DNA from: a virus
Direction: 5' to 3' (one strand)
Length of the DNA: 40,770 bases
IMG/VR virus record: IMGVR_UViG_3300025526_000005
Span: 1-40,770 of that record
The notes under the pieces were generated by a model. The model did not search any database. It had not been told where the DNA came from and worked only from the letters and a program-made list of their open reading frames with translations. The position numbers and the translations under genes were made by a program. Positions within the stretch are counted from its first letter, which is position 1. Each line of letters begins with the position of its first letter. Of this stretch, positions 1-40,770 are shown piece by piece.

Positions 1-110
1 GTTTGAAATTCGACCTTGATGTAACCGAGCGGAAAGTTTGAAAAGGGTCGTGGAAAGTTTGTAAAGGGTCAGAACGGCTCAACAAGTCGGTAACGCGGAA
101 AGGGTCAGAA
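1..110. repeat. Left-end transposase-binding repeats (attL-like)
   Basis: Two near-identical 19-bp direct repeats, GGAAAGTTTGAAAAGGGTC at 31-49 and GGAAAGTTTGTAAAGGGTC at 52-70, start 21 bp apart, which places them on one face of the helix. Bases 1-8 (GTTTGAAA) look like the inner part of a third copy cut by the window edge. A shortened copy (GGAAAGGGTC) lies at 97-106. The same unit occurs inverted at the right edge (40607-40729). By analogy with the L1-L3 and R1-R3 sites of phage Mu these are probably the sites where the transposase holds the phage ends. The exact left terminus is not visible and probably lies just before base 1. Confidence 0.75.
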
Positions 111-7285: not shown

Positions 7286-7738
7286 TTAAACCGCCTCGGT
7301 GAGCAGTTGCGCCACGGTCAAGCTGGATGTCTTTGGTCGGAAGCAGGACAAGCGGATTGCACCCTGGCCATCCACAAAGGTGCGTTGCGCCCCGCCGAGA
7401 TAAATGTAGTCGCCGTTATGGCCAAGGTCGCTCGACCCCGTATCCGGCAGGTTGCTCAGGGTGATCTTGGCCGGGATGGGCGGATATTTCAGCGCCTTCA
7501 TGGCGTCGGCGAGCGAGCCTGATCCGGCAATCTTTTTCGGGATGATCATGAGGTTGCAATACTCGCGCTCATCATGTTTGCGGAAGCCGAGCAGCTCCTT
7601 GTAACCATCCATGAACTCCTCAATCGAGGCGCGCTGCTCGCCTTCCACTGAATTAGTGAACGCGGCGATCGCGTCCGCGCCGTCGATCACGACCGTGCCG
7701 TCCACTCCCCACACTGAAGCTGTTCCGTACTGTTTCAT
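7286..7738 (-). CDS. Candidate tail-tube/major tail protein
   Basis: 150 residues, ATG start. The protein begins with beta-rich sequence (MKQYGTASVWGVDGTVVIDG) and ends with a strand-rich segment, a composition common in tail-tube and tail-terminator folds. It lies upstream of the chaperone-position and tape-measure genes, where the major tail protein is normally found. A run of nine or more T (in the transcript direction) occupies the short gap before its ATG, so no normal Shine-Dalgarno sequence is visible. Homology is not recognised, and the assignment rests on gene order and fold impression. Confidence 0.6.
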   Translation of the reverse strand: MKQYGTASVWGVDGTVVIDGADAIAAFTNSVEGEQRASIEEFMDGYKELLGFRKHDEREYCNLMIIPKKIAGSGSLADAMKALKYPPIPAKITLSNLPDTGSSDLGHNGDYIYLGGAQRTFVDGQGAIRLSCFRPKTSSLTVAQLLTEAV

Positions 7739-7750
7739 AAAAAAAAAGAC

Positions 7751-9700
7751 TTAGATGTTATCCAGGAAAAGGGCGCGGCCGGCGCCGCCTGGGCCTGTGT
7801 TATTCGCGCCGGTCTTGACGCGGTAGAGACCGCCGCCGTCGACATCGTAAAGCCAGAACCGGGTAGTGCCCGCGCTGGCGCCAGCGTCGAAGCGGAAGGT
7901 CTCAGTGGCTCCGCCAATGATGCCATTTAAGGTCTGCCCGGCGAAGGGCGCATGCACCGTGATGCCGTCCGCTTCCGAGTCCGTGCCCAGCACCATTTTC
8001 CCCCTCCTCTGCGCATCGCCGAAATCGCTCGGGAACGAACCGATATAACCACTGGCGTCGTTCGCTTCCACGCCGAGCACGGCGGCCGCGAGCGGCGCGC
8101 CGAGGGCTGTTTTGTTCTTCGCGTAGACCGCGAAAGTGCCGTTGGTATCACGGCGAAAAGTGAAGGGAGGCTGGTCCGAATTATCGAAACAATAGCAGAC
8201 GGAGCCCGCGGCGATGGAAGTTTCCGTAGTGCAATCCGGGAACTGGTTGCCGATAGCGATCGTGTTGAGTGCGCCGTCCCGCACGGTCAGCCCCGCCCCG
8301 GCATACCGGGCGTAACAGTCTCGGATGAACGTGTTCGTGCTGTCGCTGATGTAATAGGCGCTCACCGCGCTCTCAGCGGCGAAGGAAATGATGTTATTCT
8401 CCAGCCAGGTGTCGATCGAGTTGATGACACCGATGGCCAGGTCCGTCTTGACCGCCCCATCGTCAATGACGGTGTTGTTCTTCACCAGAGTGCGTTCCGC
8501 GCCGGAAATGAAAATGTCGTTCTTGGCGCATCGGCGAATGATGTTGCCAATCACCTTGTTGTCTTTGGCTGAGACGGTGATCGGCTGGCAGGTGCCGCCG
8601 TCCGAGGCGGTCACGCCGTCGAGAATATTTCCTTCGATGGTCACGTGCTGGCCCAGGCTGTAGATGCCATAGCCCTTCACGTTCTCAATCACGTTGTTCC
8701 GGACGATGCAGTTTTGGTGCTTCTCTCCGAGACGCCCGCCCGTGAACGGAGCGGAGCCTTCGCGGGCCTGGGGAGTGAAGAAGATGCCGAAACAGAGGTT
8801 ATCGATGGCGTTCGAGCCATTCCGGATATGGTTGGATTCAATAATGAAGTTATCCGCGCGCTGGACGCCGATCCCCCCGTAGCAAAAGCCGTTGATGTAA
8901 TTCCCGGAGATCCGTCCGTTGATCGCGCCATTGTAGACCCGGATCGGGTCCAGGAGTATCCCGCCGGAATACTGGCCGATCCCCCAGAACCGGTTGCCAT
9001 TGATCTGCAACGCGTCGAGAACATGGCCAGCAGTGGCGCCTTCCGTGATGAAAATGCCCCCGGCCTGGAGGTGGAGCGTCGCGGCCTCTGTCGAAGCGGC
9101 TCGGAAGTGGCAATTCTCGACCGTGATCCAACAACCAGTGCTGTTCGGCTGCGCGAAAATGGAGTAGGTCGCGTTCGTCCCATCGCTTTCGTTCATGCCC
9201 GTGAAGTGCGATTCGTAGACTTCCAGCGACCCCTCCGCGCAGATGGCCGCGCGGACGGAGTTGGTGAAAGTGCAGTTCCGGACAATGACCGTTTTATGAA
9301 AAGTACCGGCGGCGATCAGAGAGCAGCTCCGGACGATATCCCCGTAGCGGGCGCTGCGGACCGATTTGTTGCCATCAAAAACGATGCCTTCAAACATCAG
9401 CGTGGCGTCGTTCGTGTCAGCGCCCGTGGTGAACATCGAGTCCGTGGCGGAAGAGCTGTGCAAAAACACCGTGCCCGTCTCCCCGAGCCAGCGGAGATTC
9501 TTCGCCCCGGTCAGAGCGCAGCTGCTCAGCAGGTATCTCCCGGCGGGCGCATAAATAGTGTCGCCATCGTTCGCGGCGGCCATGGCCGCGCTGAAGGCCG
9601 CTGTCGTGTCGGTCAGTCCGGTCGTGATGGCGTCGTAATCCGCCAGGTTCACGACGCGCCGCCGTTCCACTTCCACCAGGTTCAGACGTGGTCTGCTCAT
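7751..9700 (-). CDS. Pectate-lyase-superfamily tailspike (right-handed beta-helix)
   Basis: 649 residues. The start is set at the ATG overlapping the preceding stop (GCATGA), which gives MSRPRLNLVEVERRRV. The N-terminal 'NLADYDAITTGLTDTTAAFSAA' region followed by GDTIYAPAGRYLL is the classic entry of the pectate-lyase/tailspike superfamily ('D..gdGvtDdTaAi..A'). Many beta-helix rungs follow, roughly residues 100-520, with repeated N-rich turns such as ISGNYING, IIESNHIRN, VIENVKG and TIEGNILDG. The C-terminal ~130 residues are a different beta domain, possibly for trimerisation. It lacks a signal peptide, unlike the beta-helix protein at 18353-19897, so it is the better candidate for the virion receptor-binding depolymerase. 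Confidence 0.85.
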   Translation of the reverse strand: MSRPRLNLVEVERRRVVNLADYDAITTGLTDTTAAFSAAMAAANDGDTIYAPAGRYLLSSCALTGAKNLRWLGETGTVFLHSSSATDSMFTTGADTNDATLMFEGIVFDGNKSVRSARYGDIVRSCSLIAAGTFHKTVIVRNCTFTNSVRAAICAEGSLEVYESHFTGMNESDGTNATYSIFAQPNSTGCWITVENCHFRAASTEAATLHLQAGGIFITEGATAGHVLDALQINGNRFWGIGQYSGGILLDPIRVYNGAINGRISGNYINGFCYGGIGVQRADNFIIESNHIRNGSNAIDNLCFGIFFTPQAREGSAPFTGGRLGEKHQNCIVRNNVIENVKGYGIYSLGQHVTIEGNILDGVTASDGGTCQPITVSAKDNKVIGNIIRRCAKNDIFISGAERTLVKNNTVIDDGAVKTDLAIGVINSIDTWLENNIISFAAESAVSAYYISDSTNTFIRDCYARYAGAGLTVRDGALNTIAIGNQFPDCTTETSIAAGSVCYCFDNSDQPPFTFRRDTNGTFAVYAKNKTALGAPLAAAVLGVEANDASGYIGSFPSDFGDAQRRGKMVLGTDSEADGITVHAPFAGQTLNGIIGGATETFRFDAGASAGTTRFWLYDVDGGGLYRVKTGANNTGPGGAGRALFLDNI

Positions 9701-22818: not shown

Positions 22819-23481
22819 TTACTTCGGCAACGCCTGCACGATCCCGCGCAGTTCCTGCAACACCCGCACGGCATTCGTGCCGCTCGTTTCCATGCCTAAC
22901 TCCCCGACGCGGGCCGACTGGCTCTTGTCGCTCTGGGCGGCCGCGAATCGCGCGAGGGCCGACTTGGCATCCCAGAACGTGCGGGCCTTGGCTCGCGTGG
23001 TGATCTCGCGGGTCGGGACACTGGTGGTTTTGGTTCCGTTGGTGACTGCTTCATAAGAAATGTCGCGTTGATCCGTGACGAAAGAAGCGCAACCGGTGAC
23101 CAGGCCAACGACGGCCGCGCCCAAAAGAATGGTTAAGGGAATGTTCCCATTGACCGATGTGCCGCCTGGATCGCCCTGGGTTTGCGCGTCTACGCGTGGG
23201 GCGAAAACGCTTCGACTTGAGTCGCCCTTGATGCGATTATAAATTTCATCGGCATCTCGCACCGCTTCCCGTTCAATTGCGTCATTCTCCGCGCTCTTCT
23301 CCGCATCGCTCAACCCAAGCGCCTTCGACCGATGCAGCACACCCCAGATCACGCCGATCGCCGCGAGTACACCCGCTGCGATAATTTCCGAGGTCGCCCC
23401 GTCCGCGTAACCGTGCGCGACCAGGATGCCGGCCAGGACCTTCAAGACGGATCGAACCAATGTTTGCGCTGTATCACTCAT
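22819..23481 (-). CDS. Membrane protein, holin candidate with lipobox
   Basis: 220 residues, ATG start, first gene of the leftward late operon. The N-terminal ~50 residues hold two closely spaced hydrophobic helices (LVRSVLKVLAGILVAHGY and AGVLAAIGVIWGVLH). These resemble small phage holins with a 'GWlta.G....' type pair. After a charged helix a second hydrophobic segment ends in a lipobox-like LVTGC (C131), followed by ~90 hydrophilic residues. This could be a holin domain fused to an Rz1/lipoprotein-like domain, which would be unusual. Upstream lie the four palindromes at 23584-23808. Confidence 0.65.
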   Translation of the reverse strand: MSDTAQTLVRSVLKVLAGILVAHGYADGATSEIIAAGVLAAIGVIWGVLHRSKALGLSDAEKSAENDAIEREAVRDADEIYNRIKGDSSRSVFAPRVDAQTQGDPGGTSVNGNIPLTILLGAAVVGLVTGCASFVTDQRDISYEAVTNGTKTTSVPTREITTRAKARTFWDAKSALARFAAAQSDKSQSARVGELGMETSGTNAVRVLQELRGIVQALPK

Positions 23482-23873
23482 GGAAGGAAAATCGCCGCGC
23501 CGGTTGGAACGAGACCCCGCCCCAAAATGTTGTGAACAGGCCGGACGCGGCTGAAGATGGTTTAAGGTTCCTGTTCACGGCGAAGGGTCTAACAACATTG
23601 CGCGACCCTGTCTGCTCACCCTGCACAAGCTGCACACCCTGCACATTAAAAGGGTAGCGCTTTTCTTTTTGACCCTGTGGATTTCCCCTCCCCTCTCAGG
23701 GTTGACCACAAATGCGCGACCCTTTCTGAAAGCCACACTCAGTGTAGCTTTTTTGCTTTTCGCTCAGGAAATCGGATTAAAAATGGTCGCTTTTTAAAAA
23801 GCGACCCTCTGACAAGCCATGGCAGATGCCCCCCTTGTGAATTCCCGCAATGGCTTGCGTTACTTAAAGTGAT
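23482..23873. promoter_or_regulatory. Gene-free control region between late operon and HTH gene
   Basis: 392 bases between divergent genes with no convincing reading frame. It contains the four GACCCT palindromes described separately, an inverted repeat GTGAACAGG (23532-23540) / CCTGTTCAC (23570-23578), and two direct copies of CACCCTGCAC (23617-23626 and 23635-23644) 18 bp apart. AT-rich tracts (for example 23660-23671 and 23750-23760) could carry promoters, but I could not pick a reliable -35/-10 pair. By position it must contain the leftward late promoter and probably the promoter of the gene starting at 23874. Confidence 0.7.
23584..23808. promoter_or_regulatory. Array of four AGGGTN-N14-GACCCT palindromes
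   Basis: Site 1: AGGGTC 23584-23589, GACCCT 23604-23609. Site 2: AGGGTA 23651-23656, GACCCT 23671-23676. Site 3: AGGGTT 23698-23703, GACCCT 23718-23723. Site 4: ATGGTC 23783-23788, GACCCT 23803-23808, which includes a perfect 22-bp palindrome at 23785-23806. In all four the gap is exactly 14 bases, so half-sites repeat every 20 bases, about two helical turns. Sites 1 and 3 extend to GCGCGACCCT. The same hexamer stands in the terminal repeats, and AGGGTAGCGC of site 2 recurs at 40596-40605. Likely binder: the transposase or the HTH protein next door. Confidence 0.8.
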
Positions 23874-24179
23874 ATGCGAGAAGTTCTGATTGTGAACAGT
23901 TCGCAGACCACGACTGCCACGCGCTCCTTTACCCCCGAGGTTCCATCAGGCCGCGTTGGGGTTTCCATCCCTGGAACGAAGCGAGAGAAGCTCACCCCGC
24001 GCATTGCCGCAGGCCGCGCGGGTGTCAGTGTGTGGACGATTTACCGGCTGCTTCAGGCCGATCTCATCCAGGGCGAACGCCCCAGTGAAAAGAAGATTCT
24101 TATCTACGCCGACAGTCTTGATGCCCACCTGGTCGCCACGCGCGATCCCGAATTCTGGGAAACGCACCACTCAGCTTAG
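23874..24179 (+). CDS. Excisionase/AlpA-like HTH protein, candidate late activator
   Basis: 101 residues from ATG 23874 (an internal GTG at 23892 is possible). The C-terminal half is a helix-turn-helix of the HTH_17/excisionase type: LTPRIAAGRAGVSVWTIYRLL, then a wing with SEKKILIYADSLDAHL. The first ~40 residues are low-complexity. It is transcribed away from the late operon across the palindrome array and converges with 24176-24991 (stop codons overlap by 3 bases). It is a single gene of its own orientation between two minus-strand units. In Mu the late genes need Mor and C activators, and none is otherwise found here, so this protein is the best candidate; that role is inference. Confidence 0.75.
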   Translation: MREVLIVNSSQTTTATRSFTPEVPSGRVGVSIPGTKREKLTPRIAAGRAGVSVWTIYRLLQADLIQGERPSEKKILIYADSLDAHLVATRDPEFWETHHSA

Positions 24180-24991
24180 TGAGCTGATCTCTCTTCGTTT
24201 TTATCCGTGACTGAGATCGCGATGTTTACATTTGAAAGCAGCATATTTGTTCCCTGGACTGGCTCGGCCCACAGGTAATGCTCCTTGCCTCCGAAGAGAG
24301 TTCGCTCGCTTCTAACCACCAGCGTGGTTGGTTCACGCTTCGGAACCGTGATGGAAAAACGTCCATCCGCATCTGTTATGACTTGGTGAGTGGATCTGTA
24401 AAATTCGGGGTTATCGATCAACGTTCGAGCGCGAGACCGAAGGTCCTTCGATCGAGCAAGCGCGGCCTCACCTTCAGTTTCTACTCTTGCCAGGTCTTCC
24501 TTCGCGGATTGGTGTTGGCCGAAAAGTCGGTTCTGTTCTTTCGTCGCTTCTTCTAGCCTTTCAGCGCGAGCCCGATTCGTCTTTGCTGCCTGCGCTCGCC
24601 GATCTGCGGGCATGTAGCGCATCAACTCAGCACTCTCCTTTATCACCCGTTCAAGTCGCACAACGTCTTTGCGCTTCGCCTCGTACGCATTGACGGCTTC
24701 AGTCTCCGCCCGAGTGGCTGCATCCAGTCGCTCATTTGCCTTCCTGAGCGCACCGTTCGCTTCTGCTTGGATCACTTCATTTGAGGCTGCCAGGTTTGCT
24801 ACTTTACTAACCGCAGGGCCGCGGACTACTCGAACGACTGTCCCGCTCAGCCGAATTGTCTCCCGATCATTTCGGACAACGAACACCTGGCCTGCAACCG
24901 TAATCTCTTCGTTCTGTCGGTGCCACAGGTAGGCCAGCGCCAGAAGTCCAATAAGCAGGGTTGAAATCAGCGCCGTCCACATTGCCTTCAT
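24176..24991 (-). CDS. Membrane-anchored coiled-coil protein coupled to the repressor
   Basis: 271 residues, ATG overlapping the repressor stop by 4 bp, so made from the same mRNA in the lysogen. One N-terminal transmembrane helix (ALISTLLIGLLALAYLW, residues ~7-23) precedes a short beta part (ITVAGQVFVV...). A long helix of about 120 residues follows, rich in Ala/Glu/Arg (coiled coil, ~70-195), then a C-terminal small beta domain with TDADGRFSITVP, typical of carboxypeptidase-regulatory-like folds. The bulk is probably periplasmic. Expression with the repressor suggests a lysogen function such as superinfection exclusion; the sequence does not prove it. Confidence 0.75.
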   Translation of the reverse strand: MKAMWTALISTLLIGLLALAYLWHRQNEEITVAGQVFVVRNDRETIRLSGTVVRVVRGPAVSKVANLAASNEVIQAEANGALRKANERLDAATRAETEAVNAYEAKRKDVVRLERVIKESAELMRYMPADRRAQAAKTNRARAERLEEATKEQNRLFGQHQSAKEDLARVETEGEAALARSKDLRSRARTLIDNPEFYRSTHQVITDADGRFSITVPKREPTTLVVRSERTLFGGKEHYLWAEPVQGTNMLLSNVNIAISVTDKNEERSAH

Positions 24992-25656
24992 TTTCGTCCT
25001 CCACGTTTTAACGTCCTACGCGTCATCTGGTAAACCGGGTGAATAAAGCGAAACTCCGTTTTCTTCCGGTCGATGGCGGGATAGAGATTTGCGTTATAGC
25101 TTGTGAGTCGCACCTGGCCAGTGCTCGTTTCGTGATAGAGCTTGAACAACACTTCCCCCTTCTCAACGAGGCGCGCGACCACAATGTCGCCATTTTGCGG
25201 CTGCTCATTCGGGGCGATCACGATCCGGTCACCAGGTCGGAAGATCGGTTCCATCGAATCACCTTCGACAATCAGCGCATATTTGTTCGGGTCTCGGCAA
25301 TCGGTCTCGACATACTCATCCATGAATCCGCCCAAGTCGTCGTACACCGTACCGTAACCCGCACTCGCCCAACTGATCACCGGAGCTTGTTCCTTCACTG
25401 GCTCAATGGGCCGTAAGCCCCTCCCTGCCTTATCATTCATCACGTAGCTATCGGCAGGCTTTGTTTCCTTATTCAGCACGGCTAATCGCAAAAGCTGTAA
25501 AGTCTGGGCGCTAGGAGTGTTCTTCCCGCTGAGGATCTGACTCACCGCCGATCGGCTGAGCTTTAATTGCCGCGCCGTTTCTGCTGCGGTCCAACCGACC
25601 ACGCGCATCAACATTTCGAATTCTACCTGCTCTGGATTTAACGGCCGTGCTTTCAA
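24988..25656 (-). CDS. c: LexA/CI-type phage repressor (S24 autopeptidase)
   Basis: 222 residues from a TTG (GAAGGGG about five bases upstream; no ATG fits). The N-terminal helix-turn-helix is WTAAETARQLKLSRSAVSQILSG (residues 22-44). The C-terminal S24 peptidase has the Ala99-Gly100 cleavage site (WASAGYG), nucleophile Ser134 in EGDSMEP and Lys172 in VLFKLY. It should keep the prophage silent and cut itself when RecA is activated, so induction is probably SOS-linked. Mu's own c repressor is not of this type. The operators at 25679-25738 lie between it and the divergent early operon. Confidence 0.92.
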   Translation of the reverse strand: MKARPLNPEQVEFEMLMRVVGWTAAETARQLKLSRSAVSQILSGKNTPSAQTLQLLRLAVLNKETKPADSYVMNDKAGRGLRPIEPVKEQAPVISWASAGYGTVYDDLGGFMDEYVETDCRDPNKYALIVEGDSMEPIFRPGDRIVIAPNEQPQNGDIVVARLVEKGEVLFKLYHETSTGQVRLTSYNANLYPAIDRKKTEFRFIHPVYQMTRRTLKRGGRK

Positions 25657-25678
25657 AAACCCCTTCGGAAAGAAACTT

Positions 25679-25738
25679 GTTAATTGAATGAACTTTTCTC
25701 TTGCGTGTTCATTTGATTAACAATATCTGTTAATTAAC
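25679..25738. promoter_or_regulatory. Operator cluster of the repressor / early switch
   Basis: Three palindromic sites lie in the 95-bp gap between the divergent repressor and Ner-like genes: GTTAATTGAATGAAC (25679-25693), GTTCATTTGATTAAC (25707-25721) and GTTAATTAAC (25729-25738). The first two are mirror copies with half-sites GTTAAT and GTTCAT around a 3-base centre, 28 bp apart. The third is a perfect 10-bp palindrome of the same core. This is how a repressor/Cro-type switch is normally built. A weak rightward promoter (TTGATT, 17 bases, AACAAT, 25713-25741) would be covered by the sites. Confidence 0.8.
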
Positions 25739-25751
25739 AATTGGTTTACAG

Positions 25752-25928
25752 ATGGCCGCCGAAAGAATCAACGCCAAAAATCTTAAAGCCCGGTGCCGGG
25801 CTCGCGACCTGACCATCGTCGCTCTGGCTCGGCAGATCGGCCGCAGTCGTCAGGCTGTTTACTTCGCTGCGGAAAACCCGTCCCGCTATTCGCGAACCTA
25901 CCGGCTCATTCAGGAGGTGCTCTCATGA
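25752..25928 (+). CDS. Ner/Cro-like early regulator
   Basis: 58 residues, ATG at 25752, the first gene of the rightward operon. The sequence is almost all one helix-turn-helix (LTIVALARQIGRSRQAVYFA), ending in RTYRLIQEVLS. Size and position, divergent from the repressor across shared operators, match Ner of Mu or Cro of lambdoid phages, which shut off repressor and early transcription. Its TGA overlaps the next ATG (ATGA), so the two are translated together. Confidence 0.75.
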   Translation: MAAERINAKNLKARCRARDLTIVALARQIGRSRQAVYFAAENPSRYSRTYRLIQEVLS

Positions 25929-27452: not shown

Positions 27453-27520
27453 CTTTTATGACCGACCTCATCCAAGTTTCGCCGTCATTCACGAAGGAGG
27501 CCAAGGAGTCCATTCTATGA
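27449..27520 (+). CDS. Possible leader peptide coupled to the transposase
   Basis: A 23-residue frame (MTFMTDLIQVSPSFTKEAKE...) whose TGA overlaps the transposase ATG (ATGA). AGGGAA precedes its start and an AAGGAG lies inside it, eight to nine bases before the transposase ATG. Such a short coupled frame could tune transposase synthesis. It may equally be chance; nothing but spacing supports it. Confidence 0.3.
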   Translation: MTFMTDLIQVSPSFTKEAKESIL

Positions 27521-29625
27521 CGTTAACCAGCCCAGCAATTTGCCTTTCCGATCGGAGGGACGAGTTCCACGAGTCCCCAGAGTGCGAATCGCACAATCCC
27601 GCGCCGCGCGCGGCTCTCTCAAATTTCGTGTCCGGTATGGTGTCGGTATTAAGCTCCGACCAGGCCAGCAGTGTTAGCGAGATTAGGATCAGCGAGGGAT
27701 TGTCCGCCCTCGCCTCATTGGGTTCTGTTGCGCCGCATGAATCGCCGGATACGAATTCAATCATTGGGAGCGGTCAAGGGACCAGCTCCAACCAGGGGGC
27801 GGCCTACGACGAAACTGGCGTAGCGAACCGCCCCCCAATTTCCGAATCCTCATCCCTGCGCCTGGCGCGCAAACAAACGCTCTGGCATCGCTACCAAGAC
27901 CTCGTGGGGCAGGGGTTGAGCCAGGCGCAAGCCGCCACGCGTCTCGGCGCGTCCAACGCCATGCTCTCGCGCATGAGCGCGATCGTGCGCGAGCAGGGGA
28001 TCGAAGGCCTCGCCGACAAATACCACCAGAGCGGCCGCAAACCGAAACTCATTCTCACACCCGAAGAGGAAGCGCGGCTCCAGGCGCTCTTCCTGAAGAC
28101 CAATCGCCATGCCGAGGGCGGCTCCATGCAGACCGCTTGCAAGTTCTTTGCACTCGATCCGCAAACCCGCGAGGAAGTGAGCACCGCCATTCTTTCCCAG
28201 CAGGAGAAAGGGCTCCTGCCCATGTTCGCTATGAAATGCCTCCGGCAAATCACCAAAGCGCACTTTGCTGCTCATCGCAAGCCCGGCAAGCTCGCGGCGG
28301 ATCATTTCGCGGGCCGCGTCGGCGCATTCTCCAAGGATAAGTTTGAGCGCCGTCGCGCGGTCGAGTCCGACGATGCCACTCTCAACTTCCCGGCTTGGAT
28401 TCCCTGGCCGCAAGGGGGCGATCCGGTGAGCGACAAATACGGCGTAAAGCTGGGCCGCTGGCAATTCCTCCCGGCGATCGAAGCGGGCTGGTCGCAATAT
28501 TATCTCGGCTATTCCCTGGTCGCGCGCCCGCGCGGTTCCTACACGCAAGAGGATGTGCGCGGCGTGATCTCCATGGTCGCTCGCCACCACGGTTTGCCGG
28601 ATGAGTTTCGGTTCGAGCGCGGCATTTGGGAGAGCGATTCCGTGGTGGAATTACTCCGATCGCTCGGCGTGGAACTCAACACCGTTTGGCAATCGAACCA
28701 AAAGCCCTTCGTCGAAGGCGGGCTCTCCACACTCTGGACCTACCTGAGCATGGTCGATGGGCAAGTCGGCCGATTCCAGGGCGAAATGGAGAAGGCCAAC
28801 CTGGATGTGGAACGTTGCCGGGCGGGCCGACTCGATCCGCGCGAAGTCTTCCCGAGCCTCACCGCCACGCACGCCGCGCTCAAGGGCGCTCTGGCCATGC
28901 GCAATTCCGATCGGCGCCAGTCTAAAACGTACGGCTCCTGGATTCCCGAAGTGCGCTATCGCGAGCAGGCGCAGGAGAAGCCCTGGCGTCCGCTCCCGCC
29001 GGAATTGAATTATCTCTTCGCGCCGATCGTGCGCGAATGGACCGTGCAGAAAGGCACCGTGGGGAACAGCGTCTCCCTGACCGAAGATCTCAAGGCTCCC
29101 TTCTACTTTTTCCACGAAGAACTCTGGCGCTCGAACGGCCAGAAGGTGCGCGTCTATTTCGATCCGGCCGCGCCGCAATGCACCGCCACCATTGTGTGCG
29201 TCACCCCGCACCTCTGCTGGAAGCCCGGCCAGATCATGCATCAAGCAACTCTCCTGGGAGAAATCCCGCACTTCACCCGCGCAGCAATGGGATGGCAAGA
29301 CCCCGCCAGCACAATCACCCCAGCCCCTGGAATGCGCGGGCCTCTTTCCGCTGTCCGCCGCGAAGTCCGCGCGCTCGCTCCGGGCGGCCGCGTGATCAGC
29401 ACCGCCAGCGAAGAACGCGATGGCCACGGCACCGTGAACCGCATTGAGCATTCCTCCCCTGGCAAACCCTCGGAGGGACAATCTCCGCGAGTCCCACAAA
29501 TTAAAGCGCCCGCCCGCCCGCGCTCGACCGCGCCGATCGATCCGGACGAAGAAACCATTTCCCTTACTTCCACCGATCGCCATGCAGCGCTCGCGGAAGA
29601 CGACGAAGAAACCATCAACCTCTAA
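27517..29625 (+). CDS. muA: Mu-type DDE transposase (MuA homologue)
   Basis: 702 residues. Start ATG 27517 has AAGGAG at the right distance. Residues 1-110 are Ser-rich and disordered; the enhancer-binding domain of MuA is not recognisable. Residues ~115-180 form a helix-turn-helix (LSQAQAATRLGASNAMLSRM). The RNase H-like core follows, with first acid D285/D286 in ESDDATLNF, then FRFERGIWES where Glu367 stands at the second acid position, and the last acid Glu400 in KPFVEGG. A beta-barrel domain follows (~500-565). The acidic tail repeats DEETISL (678-683) and DEETINL (696-702). It binds the end repeats and joins phage ends to target DNA with MuB. Two palindromic elements lie in the N- and C-terminal disordered parts. 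Confidence 0.92.
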   Translation: MTLTSPAICLSDRRDEFHESPECESHNPAPRAALSNFVSGMVSVLSSDQASSVSEIRISEGLSALASLGSVAPHESPDTNSIIGSGQGTSSNQGAAYDETGVANRPPISESSSLRLARKQTLWHRYQDLVGQGLSQAQAATRLGASNAMLSRMSAIVREQGIEGLADKYHQSGRKPKLILTPEEEARLQALFLKTNRHAEGGSMQTACKFFALDPQTREEVSTAILSQQEKGLLPMFAMKCLRQITKAHFAAHRKPGKLAADHFAGRVGAFSKDKFERRRAVESDDATLNFPAWIPWPQGGDPVSDKYGVKLGRWQFLPAIEAGWSQYYLGYSLVARPRGSYTQEDVRGVISMVARHHGLPDEFRFERGIWESDSVVELLRSLGVELNTVWQSNQKPFVEGGLSTLWTYLSMVDGQVGRFQGEMEKANLDVERCRAGRLDPREVFPSLTATHAALKGALAMRNSDRRQSKTYGSWIPEVRYREQAQEKPWRPLPPELNYLFAPIVREWTVQKGTVGNSVSLTEDLKAPFYFFHEELWRSNGQKVRVYFDPAAPQCTATIVCVTPHLCWKPGQIMHQATLLGEIPHFTRAAMGWQDPASTITPAPGMRGPLSAVRREVRALAPGGRVISTASEERDGHGTVNRIEHSSPGKPSEGQSPRVPQIKAPARPRSTAPIDPDEETISLTSTDRHAALAEDDEETINL
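27554..27577 (+). repeat. Dispersed palindromic element, copy in muA 5' part
   Basis: Two mismatches to the family core; codes for RRDEFHESP in the disordered N-terminal part of the transposase, in a different frame from the other copies. Confidence 0.65.
29472..29495 (+). repeat. Dispersed palindromic element, copy in muA 3' part
   Basis: Two mismatches to the core; codes for EGQSPRVP in the disordered C-terminal part, the same frame as the gemA copy. Confidence 0.7.
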
Positions 29626-29630
29626 AAGCC

Positions 29631-30812
29631 ATGGAAGCAACCAACCGACTCAACACCAACGGCAGCCGCACGGAACGCGATCCCATTCTGGACGGGCCGG
29701 AGCCCGCGAGAGATTCCGAAGCCCCCGAGCCTCCGCGCAACTCTGCGGCCGTGAACGCGCACCAATCCCGCTGGCGCATTCCCGGAGATGTCATTGCCCG
29801 GACCTGCAAGGACCTGACCGAAGAGCAGCGGCACGCGATTAATTGGGCGCACTCCTATTGCCGCTCGAAGAACCTGAGTCACGAAGACCTGGCCAAGCAA
29901 CTGCGCAAAAGTCCGGATAGCGAAGAGACCTATTCCGGCGACAGCGTCTATCAAACGTTCACCGGCCGGCGTGATAACGTCGCGCCCCTCTGCCAGGCTA
30001 TTCACGTCTTGCGCCGCCGCGTCGAGGAAACCTGCGCGCGGGCGGGCGTGGCCTTTGTCGAAACGTCCCTCTCGAAAAAGATTTTCGCCCATTGCCGACG
30101 CACCTTCAATCGCAAGGCTATCACCTTCATCCTTGGCGCCACCCGCATTGGCAAGACTCGGACCCTGGAAGAATACGCGCGCCAGCACAATCACGGCGAA
30201 ACCAAAATGATCCGCCTGCCGAGCGGCGGGAGCATCCGCGTTTTCCTGGTCGAATGCGCGATCGTCCTCGGGATCTCCACACAGTGCAAAAGCTTCGAAT
30301 TGCGTCGCCGCATTTTCGAGTGCTTCGATGAGCGCACCCTCCTAATCGTCGATGAGTGCGAAGAGGGCATGGTCAATCAGGAGATCCTCAATTTCATCCG
30401 CGAGCTTTGGGATCGGCGCAAATGCGGTGTCGTCTTCAGCGGAGCCATGAACCTGCGCGATGCCCCGCGGAGCAGTTATAACATGAAGAAGCTTTGCGAG
30501 CGCGGCATTCGCCCCCTCATCCTGCCGTCCGTTCCGCCTGCGGGAGACCTCGATAAATTCGCCGAAGCCTTCGGGTTAACCCCCGCGCCGAACGTCGAGA
30601 AACGCTTCAAGTTCCGTGATGAAGATGGAGTCGAGGAGTCTCTCAAAGGCAACCCTCAGGAAATCCAGAATAAGGTCATCCGCGACCATAGCCTCGGCCG
30701 CTGGCTCGCCATCCTGGAAGACGCCGCTGACACCGCCAAGGAAAGCCAAAGCCACATCTCGTGGAACCGCGTCATTGTCGCCTACGAACTCTTCAGCAAG
30801 GGGGGCATGTGA
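29631..30812 (+). CDS. muB: MuB/TniB-type AAA+ target-DNA ATPase
   Basis: 393 residues, ATG five bases after the transposase stop. The first ~45 residues are acidic/Pro-rich. Residues 60-125 form a helical DNA-binding-type domain like that of MuB. The AAA+ core has Walker A GATRIGKT (169-176), Walker B LLIVDE (237-242) and sensor-1 region VVFSGAMN (267-274). The C-terminal helical part resembles MuB's. It should polymerise on target DNA, stimulate the transposase and give target immunity. Gene order A-B is as in Mu. Confidence 0.92.
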   Translation: MEATNRLNTNGSRTERDPILDGPEPARDSEAPEPPRNSAAVNAHQSRWRIPGDVIARTCKDLTEEQRHAINWAHSYCRSKNLSHEDLAKQLRKSPDSEETYSGDSVYQTFTGRRDNVAPLCQAIHVLRRRVEETCARAGVAFVETSLSKKIFAHCRRTFNRKAITFILGATRIGKTRTLEEYARQHNHGETKMIRLPSGGSIRVFLVECAIVLGISTQCKSFELRRRIFECFDERTLLIVDECEEGMVNQEILNFIRELWDRRKCGVVFSGAMNLRDAPRSSYNMKKLCERGIRPLILPSVPPAGDLDKFAEAFGLTPAPNVEKRFKFRDEDGVEESLKGNPQEIQNKVIRDHSLGRWLAILEDAADTAKESQSHISWNRVIVAYELFSKGGM

Positions 30813-31838: not shown

Positions 31839-31879
31839 CGGCAGTGAACAGGCCAACAACAAAAGCAAACGAGACCAAC

Positions 31880-32464
31880 ATGAAGAAAGCAAAACCACTC
31901 CCGATCGATGAAGCCTCGACCGACTACAAGAACATGGTCGATCTCCTGGCCATCCTCACCCAGGCCTCGAACCAATTGCTTCAACTGCGCGGCTCCGCCC
32001 AGGAAGCGTTGATCGATATCATGGATGATCTGCGCGGGGATTACGCCGCGCTCCAGGAGACCGTCAGCAAAACCGAAGCCGCTATCGAAGCCGTGGCCCG
32101 GATGCACCCTGAATGGTTCAAGGCGCGCAAGAGCATCAAGACGCCCTACGGCGAAGTCGCCTTCCGCAGCTCGACCTCACTCGAAGTCGAGAACGAGGCC
32201 GCGACCATCGTCCGCATCCAGCTCGAAGCACAAAAGCTCTACCCTGGCGAGGGCGATGCCGCGATCGCCGCGCGCCGCATATACATCGAGACTTACGTGC
32301 GCCAAAAGGAATCACTCAATAAGGAAGCGCTCGAAGGGGAGAGTGACGCGTTCCTGTTCAAGCTCGGCATCAAACGCATCCCGGACGAAAGCTTCTCCGC
32401 GAAACCGGCTGTGCTTGACCTGGGCAAAGCCGTCAAGGAAGCCGTCGAACAGGAGGCCACCTAA
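31880..32464 (+). CDS. gam: Gam-like DNA-end protection protein
   Basis: 194 residues from ATG 31880; a GTG twelve codons upstream is in frame but unlikely. Helical N-terminal half (VDLLAILTQASNQLLQLRG) with a long coiled part. The core segment IKTPYGEVAFRSSTSLEV is followed by a C-terminal part with ESLNKEAL and LGIKRIPDESFSAKP. These are the signature blocks of the Mu Gam family (Ku-like fold). Gam dimers bind double-strand ends and block RecBCD-type exonucleases. The usual length (~170-195) fits. Confidence 0.85.
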   Translation: MKKAKPLPIDEASTDYKNMVDLLAILTQASNQLLQLRGSAQEALIDIMDDLRGDYAALQETVSKTEAAIEAVARMHPEWFKARKSIKTPYGEVAFRSSTSLEVENEAATIVRIQLEAQKLYPGEGDAAIAARRIYIETYVRQKESLNKEALEGESDAFLFKLGIKRIPDESFSAKPAVLDLGKAVKEAVEQEAT

Positions 32465-32472
32465 ACCCAACA

Positions 32473-32772
32473 ATGAAAGCCGAAATGCTCAACCTCCTGC
32501 ACCGGCTTGGCGCGCATCCGCTCCTCGGATCGTTCCAGGGCCTCATCATTTTTCCGGATGGCCGCGCCATGGCCTGGTTCCGGCACAACTCGCTCCCGTT
32601 TCGCAACCTCAGCGAGTTGGAACAATACGCCTATAGCGAACCGCCCTCCGCCCTGCCACCCCTGCGCCCGAATGAAAGCCAAGCCGCCCCTCCAACCGAA
32701 GCCAAAGAAACACTCGCACCAGAAACTCTTCGGCCTCAGCAACCCGGAACTCTCAGCCCTGCTCGTCCGTGA
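32473..32772 (+). CDS. Small phage protein with Pro-rich tail
   Basis: 99 residues, ATG start, 8 bases after gam. The folded part is residues ~1-55 (LNLLHRLGAHPLLGSFQGLI, FPDGRAMAWFRHNSLPF, LSELEQYAY). The remaining 45 residues are Pro/Glu/Thr-rich. Its last 101 bases overlap the next gene in another frame, and the Pro-rich composition there may be imposed by that overlap. Function unknown. Confidence 0.6.
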   Translation: MKAEMLNLLHRLGAHPLLGSFQGLIIFPDGRAMAWFRHNSLPFRNLSELEQYAYSEPPSALPPLRPNESQAAPPTEAKETLAPETLRPQQPGTLSPARP

Positions 32773-32911
32773 ATACATCGAGCAAAACGACCCGCGCGCC
32801 CTCAGCCTCCTGCGAGAAGCCTGGCCGCACATCGACTGGGACGAGGTCATCGGCCATTTCCGCGAAGTCCACTACGGCCGCAGCGGCGAACCCATCACCA
32901 TCGCCGAGTGA
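32672..32911 (+). CDS. Small acidic helical protein overlapping its neighbours
   Basis: 79 residues, ATG 32672. After a basic stretch (KPKKHSHQK) comes a well-formed helical part (LSNPELSALLVREYIEQND, SLLREAWPHIDWDEVIGHF). It overlaps the previous gene by 101 bases and its 3' half lies over the start of the DnaA-like frame. Composition marks it as the real coding frame between ~32700 and 32911. A +1 shift near its stop would join it to the DnaA-like frame. Confidence 0.6.
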   Translation: MKAKPPLQPKPKKHSHQKLFGLSNPELSALLVREYIEQNDPRALSLLREAWPHIDWDEVIGHFREVHYGRSGEPITIAE

Positions 32912-33335
32912 ATGGCGGCGGCTCCGGTCCGAAATTGCCACCCTGCAAGAACTCCTAAGTCTCTACCGCGATCGGGATCGCCTCGCCGCCGCAGTCGAGC
33001 TGAGCCCGCCCCGCGCGCGCCTGATCGATCGCGTGGAGCGCGCCGTCTGCGAAGTCTTTGATGTCACTCCCGAGGAATTGCGATCTAAGGCTAAGCCGGT
33101 CCATATCTCCGACCCGCGCCAGGTCGCAATGGCCATCTGCTACCAATTGGGACGGCACGGTGAAGTGGACGCCATTGCCCGTCATTACAATCGTGAGCGC
33201 TCCACGGTCCTCTGGGCCGTTCGCGCCGTCGCCGTCAAACTCGATATCGACCCCCACTTCCGCGCCCGCTATGACCAGGTCAAAATCCTCGCTTCACTCA
33301 CAAACTCCCAACTCCCTGATTTACCAACTCCCTGA
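32769..33335 (+). CDS. DnaA domain-IV-like DNA-binding protein, start uncertain
   Basis: The frame is open from GTG 32769 (overlapping the stop of 32473-32772), which gives 188 residues, but residues 1-47 are Ser/Thr-rich and lie over another gene. Convincing sequence begins at WRRLRSEIATLQELLSLYR (about 32913), where no ATG/GTG/TTG exists. The C-terminal part (ERAVCEVFDVTPEEL, SDPRQVAMAICYQL, RHYNRERSTVLWAVRAV) matches the C-terminal DNA-binding domain of DnaA. It could load replication proteins or compete for DnaA boxes. Either the long GTG form is made, or a +1 frameshift from 32672-32911, or an unusual start is used. Confidence 0.7.
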   Translation: MNTSSKTTRAPSASCEKPGRTSTGTRSSAISAKSTTAAAANPSPSPSEWRRLRSEIATLQELLSLYRDRDRLAAAVELSPPRARLIDRVERAVCEVFDVTPEELRSKAKPVHISDPRQVAMAICYQLGRHGEVDAIARHYNRERSTVLWAVRAVAVKLDIDPHFRARYDQVKILASLTNSQLPDLPTP

Positions 33336-35227: not shown

Positions 35228-35728
35228 ATGACTCTTACCGCCGCCAGAAAGCTCGCCGAACGCATCCAGGAGGAACTCGCTCCCCTGTGTCACGAGTGCG
35301 TGATTGCCGGGTCGATCCGCCGCCGTTGCTCCGTGGTCAATGATATCGACCTGGTCATCATTCCCCAGGACCAATACACTGTGCGCGCGCGCGTCCTGCG
35401 CAACGCCACGCCCATCCAGGATGGCCCGGTCAATCTCCTGGTCCGCCTGCAAAACGATATCCAGCTCGATATTTTCTTCGCCCGGCCGGCCACGCAGGAT
35501 CTGCTCGATAAACGGCCCACCAACCTCGGCAGCCTGATGCTGTGCCGCACCGGCAGCCGCGAGCACAATATCAAGCTCGCCACCCGCGCCGAAACCCTCG
35601 GCCTGAAATGGAGAATCTACGAAGGCCTGGTCGACCTCGAATCCGGCCTGCTCGTCGCCAGCGTCACCGAGGAAGATATGTTCCGCGCCCTCAAAATGGA
35701 TTTCATCAAACCGGAGGATCGCAAGTAG
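35228..35728 (+). CDS. Family-X DNA polymerase-like nucleotidyltransferase
   Basis: 166 residues, ATG directly after the preceding TAA. The palm domain has VIAGSIRRRC (GS at 28-29), VVNDIDLVI (D39, D41) and IQLDIFFA (D81), the three metal-binding acids of the Pol beta superfamily. Then GSLMLCRTGSREHNIKLATR and AETLGLKWRIYEGL match the thumb of PolX enzymes. The 8-kDa and fingers domains are missing; cellular PolX proteins are 330-580 residues. It could fill gaps left after transposition or act as a nucleotidyl transferase on other substrates. All catalytic residues are present. Confidence 0.88.
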   Translation: MTLTAARKLAERIQEELAPLCHECVIAGSIRRRCSVVNDIDLVIIPQDQYTVRARVLRNATPIQDGPVNLLVRLQNDIQLDIFFARPATQDLLDKRPTNLGSLMLCRTGSREHNIKLATRAETLGLKWRIYEGLVDLESGLLVASVTEEDMFRALKMDFIKPEDRK

Positions 35729-39816: not shown

Positions 39817-39950
39817 AGATCGACCCTTCTGAAGACCCGGAAACGCTTCCCACCGCCCAGCCCGATGTCTTCGTCGTCAATCCAGACGGCACGCGCACCG
39901 AGGTGGAAAGCCCCTCGATCTTCGACGCTCCCCAAGAGTCACCTAAATGA
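39813..39950 (+). CDS. Small acidic protein after MuF-zincin
   Basis: 45 residues, ATG overlapping the MuF stop and its own stop overlapping the next ATG (ATGA both sides), which makes it credible despite its size. Very acidic and Pro/Ser-rich (MKIDPSEDPETLPTAQPDV, SPSIFDAPQES), no hydrophobic core, probably disordered. As the gene after a possible toxin it could be a small inhibitor or chaperone; this is speculation. Confidence 0.55.
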   Translation: MKIDPSEDPETLPTAQPDVFVVNPDGTRTEVESPSIFDAPQESPK

Positions 39951-40399
39951 AGTCCGACCCGCGCTGGATCTCTAACCCCAGCGATCATGCCTCAGCTCTC
40001 AAAGCTCTGGAGGGACGCACCTGTCCTGTTTGCGGCTCAAACCTTTTGCGGGCCATCATACATCCCACCGCGCGCGTCTGGGACGCTCACTGCAACAACT
40101 GCGGCTCCAAGATCCCAGTTGTCGTGATCCTGAATCGGGAAGAGTGGATTAGATCCGCATCACTACCTGCCCCGGTGATCGCCTTAACCCCTCACGCCAT
40201 CGGCCCTTTGCCACCCCACGACATGGCCGCCGTTATGGAAGCCAATCGCCGCGCCGCCCTGTCCGGTGACACCAAGACCCTGGAATCCTTCACCCGCTTC
40301 GGCATCACCCTCGAAGAACTCAAAACCCTTTCCGCCGAGGTCCTGGCCGATCGCACAACCGAATCCTTCCTGAAGCCCAAGAGGTTGAAGTCCGCATGA
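39947..40399 (+). CDS. Zinc-ribbon protein
   Basis: 150 residues, ATG overlapping the preceding stop. An N-terminal zinc ribbon has CPVCGSNLL (C26, C29) and CNNCGSK (C49, C52). The C-terminal half is helical (AAVMEANRRAALSGDTKTL, FGITLEELKTLSAEVLADR). No enzyme motif. Could be a DNA- or RNA-binding regulator, or part of the MuF cassette. Confidence 0.65.
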   Translation: MKSDPRWISNPSDHASALKALEGRTCPVCGSNLLRAIIHPTARVWDAHCNNCGSKIPVVVILNREEWIRSASLPAPVIALTPHAIGPLPPHDMAAVMEANRRAALSGDTKTLESFTRFGITLEELKTLSAEVLADRTTESFLKPKRLKSA

Positions 40400-40602: not shown

Positions 40603-40729
40603 CGCCGACCCTTTTCAAACTTTCCGCTGAGGCCTTTACAAACTTTCCACACGCGGTTTAGGCGAAACGAGTCAGAAGTAGCTGATCTTCAGCCTCCTTC
40701 AGCGAAATAAGGGCTATTTCAATCTTTCC
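40596..40729. repeat. Right-end transposase-binding repeats (attR-like)
   Basis: Inverted copies of the left-end unit: GACCCTTTTCAAACTTTCC at 40607-40625 is the exact complement of the 31-49 copy. A second copy (GGCCTTTACAAACTTTCC, 40631-40648) ends 23 bp on, and a weaker one (GGGCTATTTCAATCTTTCC, 40711-40729) is outermost. The outermost right copy and the cut left copy at base 1 share TTGAAAT on the strand where they match, as expected for a pair of terminal sites. AGGGT (40596-40600) also pairs with ACCCT (40608-40612). The right terminus is probably within the last ~40 bases or just beyond. Confidence 0.75.
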
Positions 40730-40770
40730 ACTCGGTCTCACTGATCCTACTCCTCTCCCCACCCTCCACA

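Follow-up and report, generated by a model that had tools for sequence, protein, structure and literature searches.

We analyzed the entire linear IMG/VR record IMGVR_UViG_3300025526_000005 (40,770 bases; hereafter the window) and found four long palindromes of constant spacing in the control region of its leftward late operon, sharing the motif AGGGT with the repeats at the phage ends. We read them tentatively, with a probability of about 0.4, as an operator array at the late promoter that is built on the end box of the phage's transposase, with the transposase as the most likely reader. The sequence patterns hint at control of the late genes by the transposition machinery or by a regulator that uses the same site.

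The Late Control Region and Its Palindromes

The window is a near-complete, uncultured Mu-like phage whose tips, at about positions 20 and 40740, were placed by comparison with other phages of the group. Genes for a MuA-like transposase, a MuB-like ATPase (29631–30812), and Gam (31844–32464) run rightward, and those for the holin, terminase, portal, protease/capsid, and tail run leftward. The holin gene and a small helix-turn-helix (HTH) gene diverge from a gene-free gap (Table 1), and the distance between their start codons equals the 392 bp given in the initial annotation. All four palindromes lie upstream of the holin start, at a distance of 103 bp and more. A sigma-70 scan of the gap returned no consensus promoter, and the gap contained no DnaA boxes. 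Terminator-like matches at 23785 and 23714 were the palindromes themselves; since divergent genes flank the region, we dismissed a function as terminators.

Table 1. Features of the window relevant to the palindrome array (a point marks features given without strand)
Feature	Position	Strand	Details
Left phage end	20..70	+	tip TGTAACCG at 20; boxes GGAAAGTTTGAAAAGGGTC (31–49) and GGAAAGTTTGTAAAGGGTC (52–70)
Extra AAAGGGTC near left end	99–106		
Holin (Pam3 gp28 family), first gene of leftward late operon	22819..23481	-	PF23987, E=3e-9
Divergent control region of late operon, gene-free, 392 bp	23482..23873	.	between start codons
Second motif TGTGAACAG, copy 1	23531..23539	+	
CTGTTCAC, part of second motif	23571–23578	-	
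Palindrome 1	23584..23609	.	AGGGTCTAACAACATTGCGCGACCCT; exact AGGGT-N16-ACCCT, dyad 9/13
Palindrome 2	23651..23676	.	AGGGTAGCGCTTTTCTTTTTGACCCT; exact match, dyad 5/13
End-type box AAAAGGGT within palindrome 2	23649		AAAGGGT
Palindrome 3	23698..23723	.	AGGGTTGACCACAAATGCGCGACCCT; exact match, dyad 8/13
End-type box GAAAGGGTC, right arm of palindrome 3	23719	-	AAAGGGT
Palindrome 4	23783..23808	.	ATGGTCGCTTTTTAAAAAGCGACCCT; near-perfect dyad 12/13, one mismatch to pattern
Small Xis/MerR-like HTH protein, candidate reader	23874..24179	+	profile, AF2, Foldseek
Second motif TGTGAACAG, copy 2	23891..23899	+	
S24 CI-like repressor	24988..25656	-	PF00717, E=2e-19; HTH_3
Likely repressor operators, TGTTAAT x4 including TGTTAATTAACA	25678..25739	.	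all four TGTTAAT of the window
MuA-like transposase, candidate reader	27517..29625	+	I-beta and I-gamma, without I-alpha; phrog_310, E=2e-11
Right phage end	40607..40740	-	boxes 40607–40625 and 40630–40648; tip about 40740
Outer degenerate box, right end	40712–40734		

The initial annotation had described four evenly built palindromes of the form AGGGTN-N14-GACCCT in front of the late operon. We recovered them at matching coordinates, and the constant spacing stood: in all four, 14 bases separate the hexamers, whose centers are 20 bp apart. The evenness of the arms held less well. AGGGT is present in every arm but the left one of palindrome 4, which reads ATGGTC (paired with GACCCT) and falls outside AGGGTN, and the inner bases GC are kept in just five to six of the eight half-sites. 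Palindrome 4, with its single mismatch to the pattern, is the most symmetric of the set.

We compared the array with dinucleotide shuffles of the whole window, scoring families of 5-mer inverted repeats that have one fixed spacer and three copies in 500 bp. None of the 60 shuffles contained such a family, while the real window has exactly one, the AGGGT/ACCCT palindromes. Given the counts of AGGGT and ACCCT in the gap, the probability of all three AGGGT falling at one spacing is ~1e-4. The gap is also the densest spot of the window for the two 5-mers, with nine occurrences vs. a shuffle mean of 0.8 and a maximum of four. The palindromes as such are not conserved in relatives, as would be expected of a product of chance or sequence composition; with both the family and the density beyond anything in the shuffles, however, we regard such an origin as extremely improbable.

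The array is flanked by a second motif, GTGAACAG, with three of its four copies in the window placed there, and more than one protein may therefore act at the late control region. One GTGAACAG pair near the array forms an inverted repeat, GTGAACAGG/CCTGTTCAC.

Terminal Repeats and the End Box

The ends of the window carry GGAAAGTTTGWAAAGGGTC repeats at 31 and 52 and, inverted, at 40607 and 40630. As the initial annotation had proposed, the hexamer of the palindromes recurs in these repeats (AGGGTC at 44, 65, 101, and 40607), and the 10-mer AGGGTAGCGC is common to palindrome 2 (23651) and the flank of the right-end repeats (40596), with no further copy in the window.

Searches for close relatives through the transposase, MuB, and portal in viral contigs, a phage collection, and genome contigs returned either nothing or distant matches only. 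The DNA pattern of the terminal repeats led to G001 and to the Verrucomicrobiaceae genome G003, and subsequent profile searches gave further prophages and IMG/VR contigs. Most matches to the end motif in genome contigs were chance occurrences within coding sequence. The relatives are distant and mostly Verrucomicrobiota prophages and IMG/VR contigs, the closest being G700 and G701 (48–49% transposase identity over the best segments) and G847 (46%). One of them, G704, is a 28.5-kb record that starts and ends exactly at the phage tips (TGTGACCAA...) and is apparently a complete small Mu-like phage.

Across the group, the AGGGT motif keeps its distance from the phage tip. It starts 25 bp from the tip at the left end of the window, the right ends of G700 and G701, and the left end of G704, and 26 bp from it at the right end of G704. 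Arrays of AAAGGGT are found at the ends of the window, G001, G045, G056, G098, G503, G700, G701, and G704. Judged from this placement, AGGGT is the position-locked terminal transposase box of this phage group. The phages whose transposases have the I-beta HTH (the window, G700, G701, and G503) carry an extra conserved half outside the box, whereas for transposases without I-beta (G098, G705, and the G045 type) the ends, where the records include them, seem to retain little more than GAAAAGGGT or TGAAAGGGT. By this comparison, the AGGGT part of the box is probably read by I-gamma.

Late Promoters of Related Phages

We found the end motif, GAAAAGGGT/AAAGGGT, clustered far above chance upstream of the holin, the first late gene, in G098 and G705, two relatives close enough to each other not to count as fully independent cases. 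The contig of G098 has end boxes at both extremities; of the ten AAAGGGT in its 33-kb record, four are at the ends and four fall in the 230 bp immediately before the holin gene. In the 16.7-kb record of G705, three of the four copies occupy a 180-bp stretch upstream of a gene for a holin-like protein. The largest clusters in shuffled sequences had two copies for G098 and one for G705. The holin-like membrane proteins of the two phages occupy the position that the holin has in the window, and the nearest site is similarly far from the holin start in the window (103 bp), G098 (118 bp), and G705 (100 bp). A weak case is G503, where a leftward gene is preceded by two sites separated by 48 bp. We did not count an AGGGTC cluster at 34.5 kb in G577 that falls within a coding frame. 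The reverse strand of G705 contains, at ~7715–7975 of the reversed record and between the holin and repressor-like genes, two tandem sets of three palindromes (GAGTGTCTCAATGTGGACACTC and GCTGTGTCCACAGTGGACACAGC).

The clusters are not universal in the group: no internal end-box cluster was found at the late promoters of G700, G701, G847, and the G045 group. G847 has the same ends as the window, yet no cluster at its probable late promoter; two AAAGGGT (692 and 869) are located in its terminase–portal gap. The conserved N14 spacing that the initial annotation had suggested looking for in related prophages was found in no relative examined, nor in the genome sets searched. Scans for tandem AGGGT-N16-ACCCT pairs gave just two unrelated simple-repeat arrays among the viral contigs and one coding repeat among 384 genomes of the class of G098, and 387 genomes of the order of G003, searched for single copies of the palindrome AGGGTCGC-N10-GCGACCCT, yielded two near-chance matches.

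Other motifs are distributed in a comparable way. Palindromes of the GTGACACGTGTCAC type are found at both ends and in an internal regulatory region of G704 (81, 19010, and 28314) and beside the right-end array and in an internal regulatory region of G045; a related palindrome, GTGTCCCACATGGGACAC, lies beside the left end of G704. It thus seems that, with different motifs, the group repeatedly shares a binding site between the ends and an internal control region, a pattern noticed after the fact that does not amount to a test.

Candidate Readers of the Array

The array, its nonrandom spacing, its place at the late operon, the position-locked AGGGT, and the clusters in two relatives are the observations from which we consider the identity of the reader. 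An end-repeat 6-mer would turn up in a random half-site with a chance of ~1%, and relatives carry end boxes at the same promoter; we therefore favor the transposase. In its AF2 model, residues 1–111 are disordered, and they are also unconserved; an HTH begins at residue 112, and two helical DNA-binding domains are followed by the catalytic core, with the Mu transpososome (4fcy) as the best Foldseek match.

Several features count against the transposase. The half-sites of the array extend inward (AGGGTCGC, with its partly kept GC) while those of the end boxes extend outward (GAAA), such that the overlap consists of AGGGTC only, and the outer GAAA/GGAAAGTTTG of the end sites is mostly absent from the array. 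On their end sites, MuA-type proteins are directional monomers, whereas dyads suggest a symmetric dimer. The lack of palindromes in the relatives and of clusters in G847, G700, G701, and the G045 group weighs in the same direction, as do the closeness of G098 to G705, the weakness of the G503 case, and the absence of a promoter consensus from the gap.

If the transposase is the reader, it would bind copies of the box placed face to face and two helical turns apart at the late promoter. Made early, it would occupy the array and hold the promoter off, or otherwise set it; each round of replicative transposition would add end sites competing for the protein, and the late genes would open once phage copies have accumulated. 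Binding at the array, the sign of its effect, and titration are all elements that we infer. A transposase acting in this way would be a late-gene switch titrated by the rising number of phage ends; copy number would set the timing, and no separate activator would be needed. We consider this possible but doubtful.

The small HTH protein encoded at 23874 is a competing candidate, the best one for a dedicated dimeric regulator. The array would then be the operator of a dimer that controls its own gene and, much like Mu C/Mor, the divergent late promoter, and the overlap with AGGGT would be coincidental or secondary. The gene adjoins the array, and a profile built from five members found homologues in most relatives, including G098, G503, G045, G577, G190, and G003, a conservation that suits a late regulator. 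The homologues are usually located away from the late promoter, however, in the early arm near MuB or a MuF-like gene, and in phages of the G045 group the protein is present while the late promoter lacks AGGGT sites. Exact dyads, and the near-perfect symmetry of palindrome 4 in particular, would suit a dimer, and dimeric activators such as Mu C bind dyads at late promoters (PMC4287176). The protein of the window falls in no Pfam or PHROG family; its AF2 model is a small winged HTH, for which Foldseek pointed to Xis, SoxR, and BldC at nonsignificant E-values, and a fold of the Xis/MerR/BldC kind without a long dimerization helix argues against such a role. Small Xis-like proteins also usually bind direct repeats. 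With the shared end box left unexplained, we find the protein at 23874 a somewhat less likely reader than the transposase, though a serious candidate.

Lower still we place the S24 repressor, the Cro/Ner-like protein (25752), a ParB-like protein (26176), or a host protein, whose operators the sites are unlikely to be. The same region of relatives contains other operator-like palindromes, GTGTCCACAGTGGACAC in G098 and G705 and GTGACACGTGTCAC in G045/G173, and the GTGAACAG motif beside the array would be consistent with additional regulators. Against this, the intergenic region between the repressor and Cro genes has a motif of its own, TGTTAAT, and AGGGTC is absent from the promoter region of the S24 repressor (25656–25793). 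The Cro/Ner-like gene (25752–25928, plus strand), previously unlisted, opens the early operon and encodes a 58-aa HTH protein; in relatives, G045 and G098 among them, small HTH genes are similarly placed.

The initial annotation had also suggested an internal transposition enhancer of the type of the Mu internal activation sequence (IAS), moved to the late promoter. Like the Mu element, the array is internal, away from the ends, and possibly read by the transposase, and it contains the end-type box. The Mu enhancer (operators O1–O3), however, is bound by the I-alpha domain of the transposase (PMC3362531). It also overlaps the repressor operators, which lie between the repressor and the early genes. 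The transposase of the window has no I-alpha winged helix, which makes a Mu-type enhancer unlikely; the likely repressor operators are 1.9 kb away, the motif of the array is the end box itself, and G700, G701, and G847, with the same ends, have no internal cluster. We thus consider the Mu analogy highly improbable. The broader link between late transcription and transposition that the annotation had drawn fares better: with AGGGT as the terminal box of the group and the clusters in G098 and G705, a connection between late control and end recognition is reasonable.

Comparison with Known Systems

The array resembles the dyad targets of Mu C and Mor at late and middle promoters, where dimers of C bind at four late promoters (PMC4287176), in that dyad-symmetric sites precede the late genes of a Mu-like phage. 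It differs in having four long dyads at one promoter and a half-site common to the phage ends, and among the window proteins covered by the Pfam and PHROG scans there was no Mor/C family member. P2 Ogr and P4 delta also have late-promoter dyads whose half-sites are more than a helical turn apart by a clear margin; the dyads of the window share this layout but differ in sequence, and no Ogr-type protein was identified, although a zinc-ribbon-like protein is encoded at 39947–40399. For all Mu-like phages, terminal transposase boxes are a known feature. The window agrees with terminal repeats of the MuA/TnsB type in its AGGGT box 25 bp from the tip, its two to four repeats per end, and the transposase fold closest to the Mu transpososome, and departs from them in that the internal copies are paired as palindromes without the outer GGAAAGTTTG half.

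In a narrow literature search we met no account of end boxes serving at a late promoter. In Mu, late transcription depends on transposition-replication and, to our knowledge, the tie between the two is not fully explained. In a phage group with the end box of the transposase at the late promoter, the two would be tied together directly and in a testable way. The analysis also defines the phage ends and a conserved small HTH protein for a little-described group of Mu-like phages with many members in Verrucomicrobiota.

The right arm of the window contains further recognizable genes. Near Gam, a plus-strand gene (32769–33335) encodes a phage protein, possibly a helicase loader or regulator, whose C-terminal part is a DnaA domain IV (PF08299, E=1.6e-14). 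A DNA polymerase beta thumb protein (35228–35728, plus strand; PF14791, E=7e-12) lies between two DNA methyltransferase genes.
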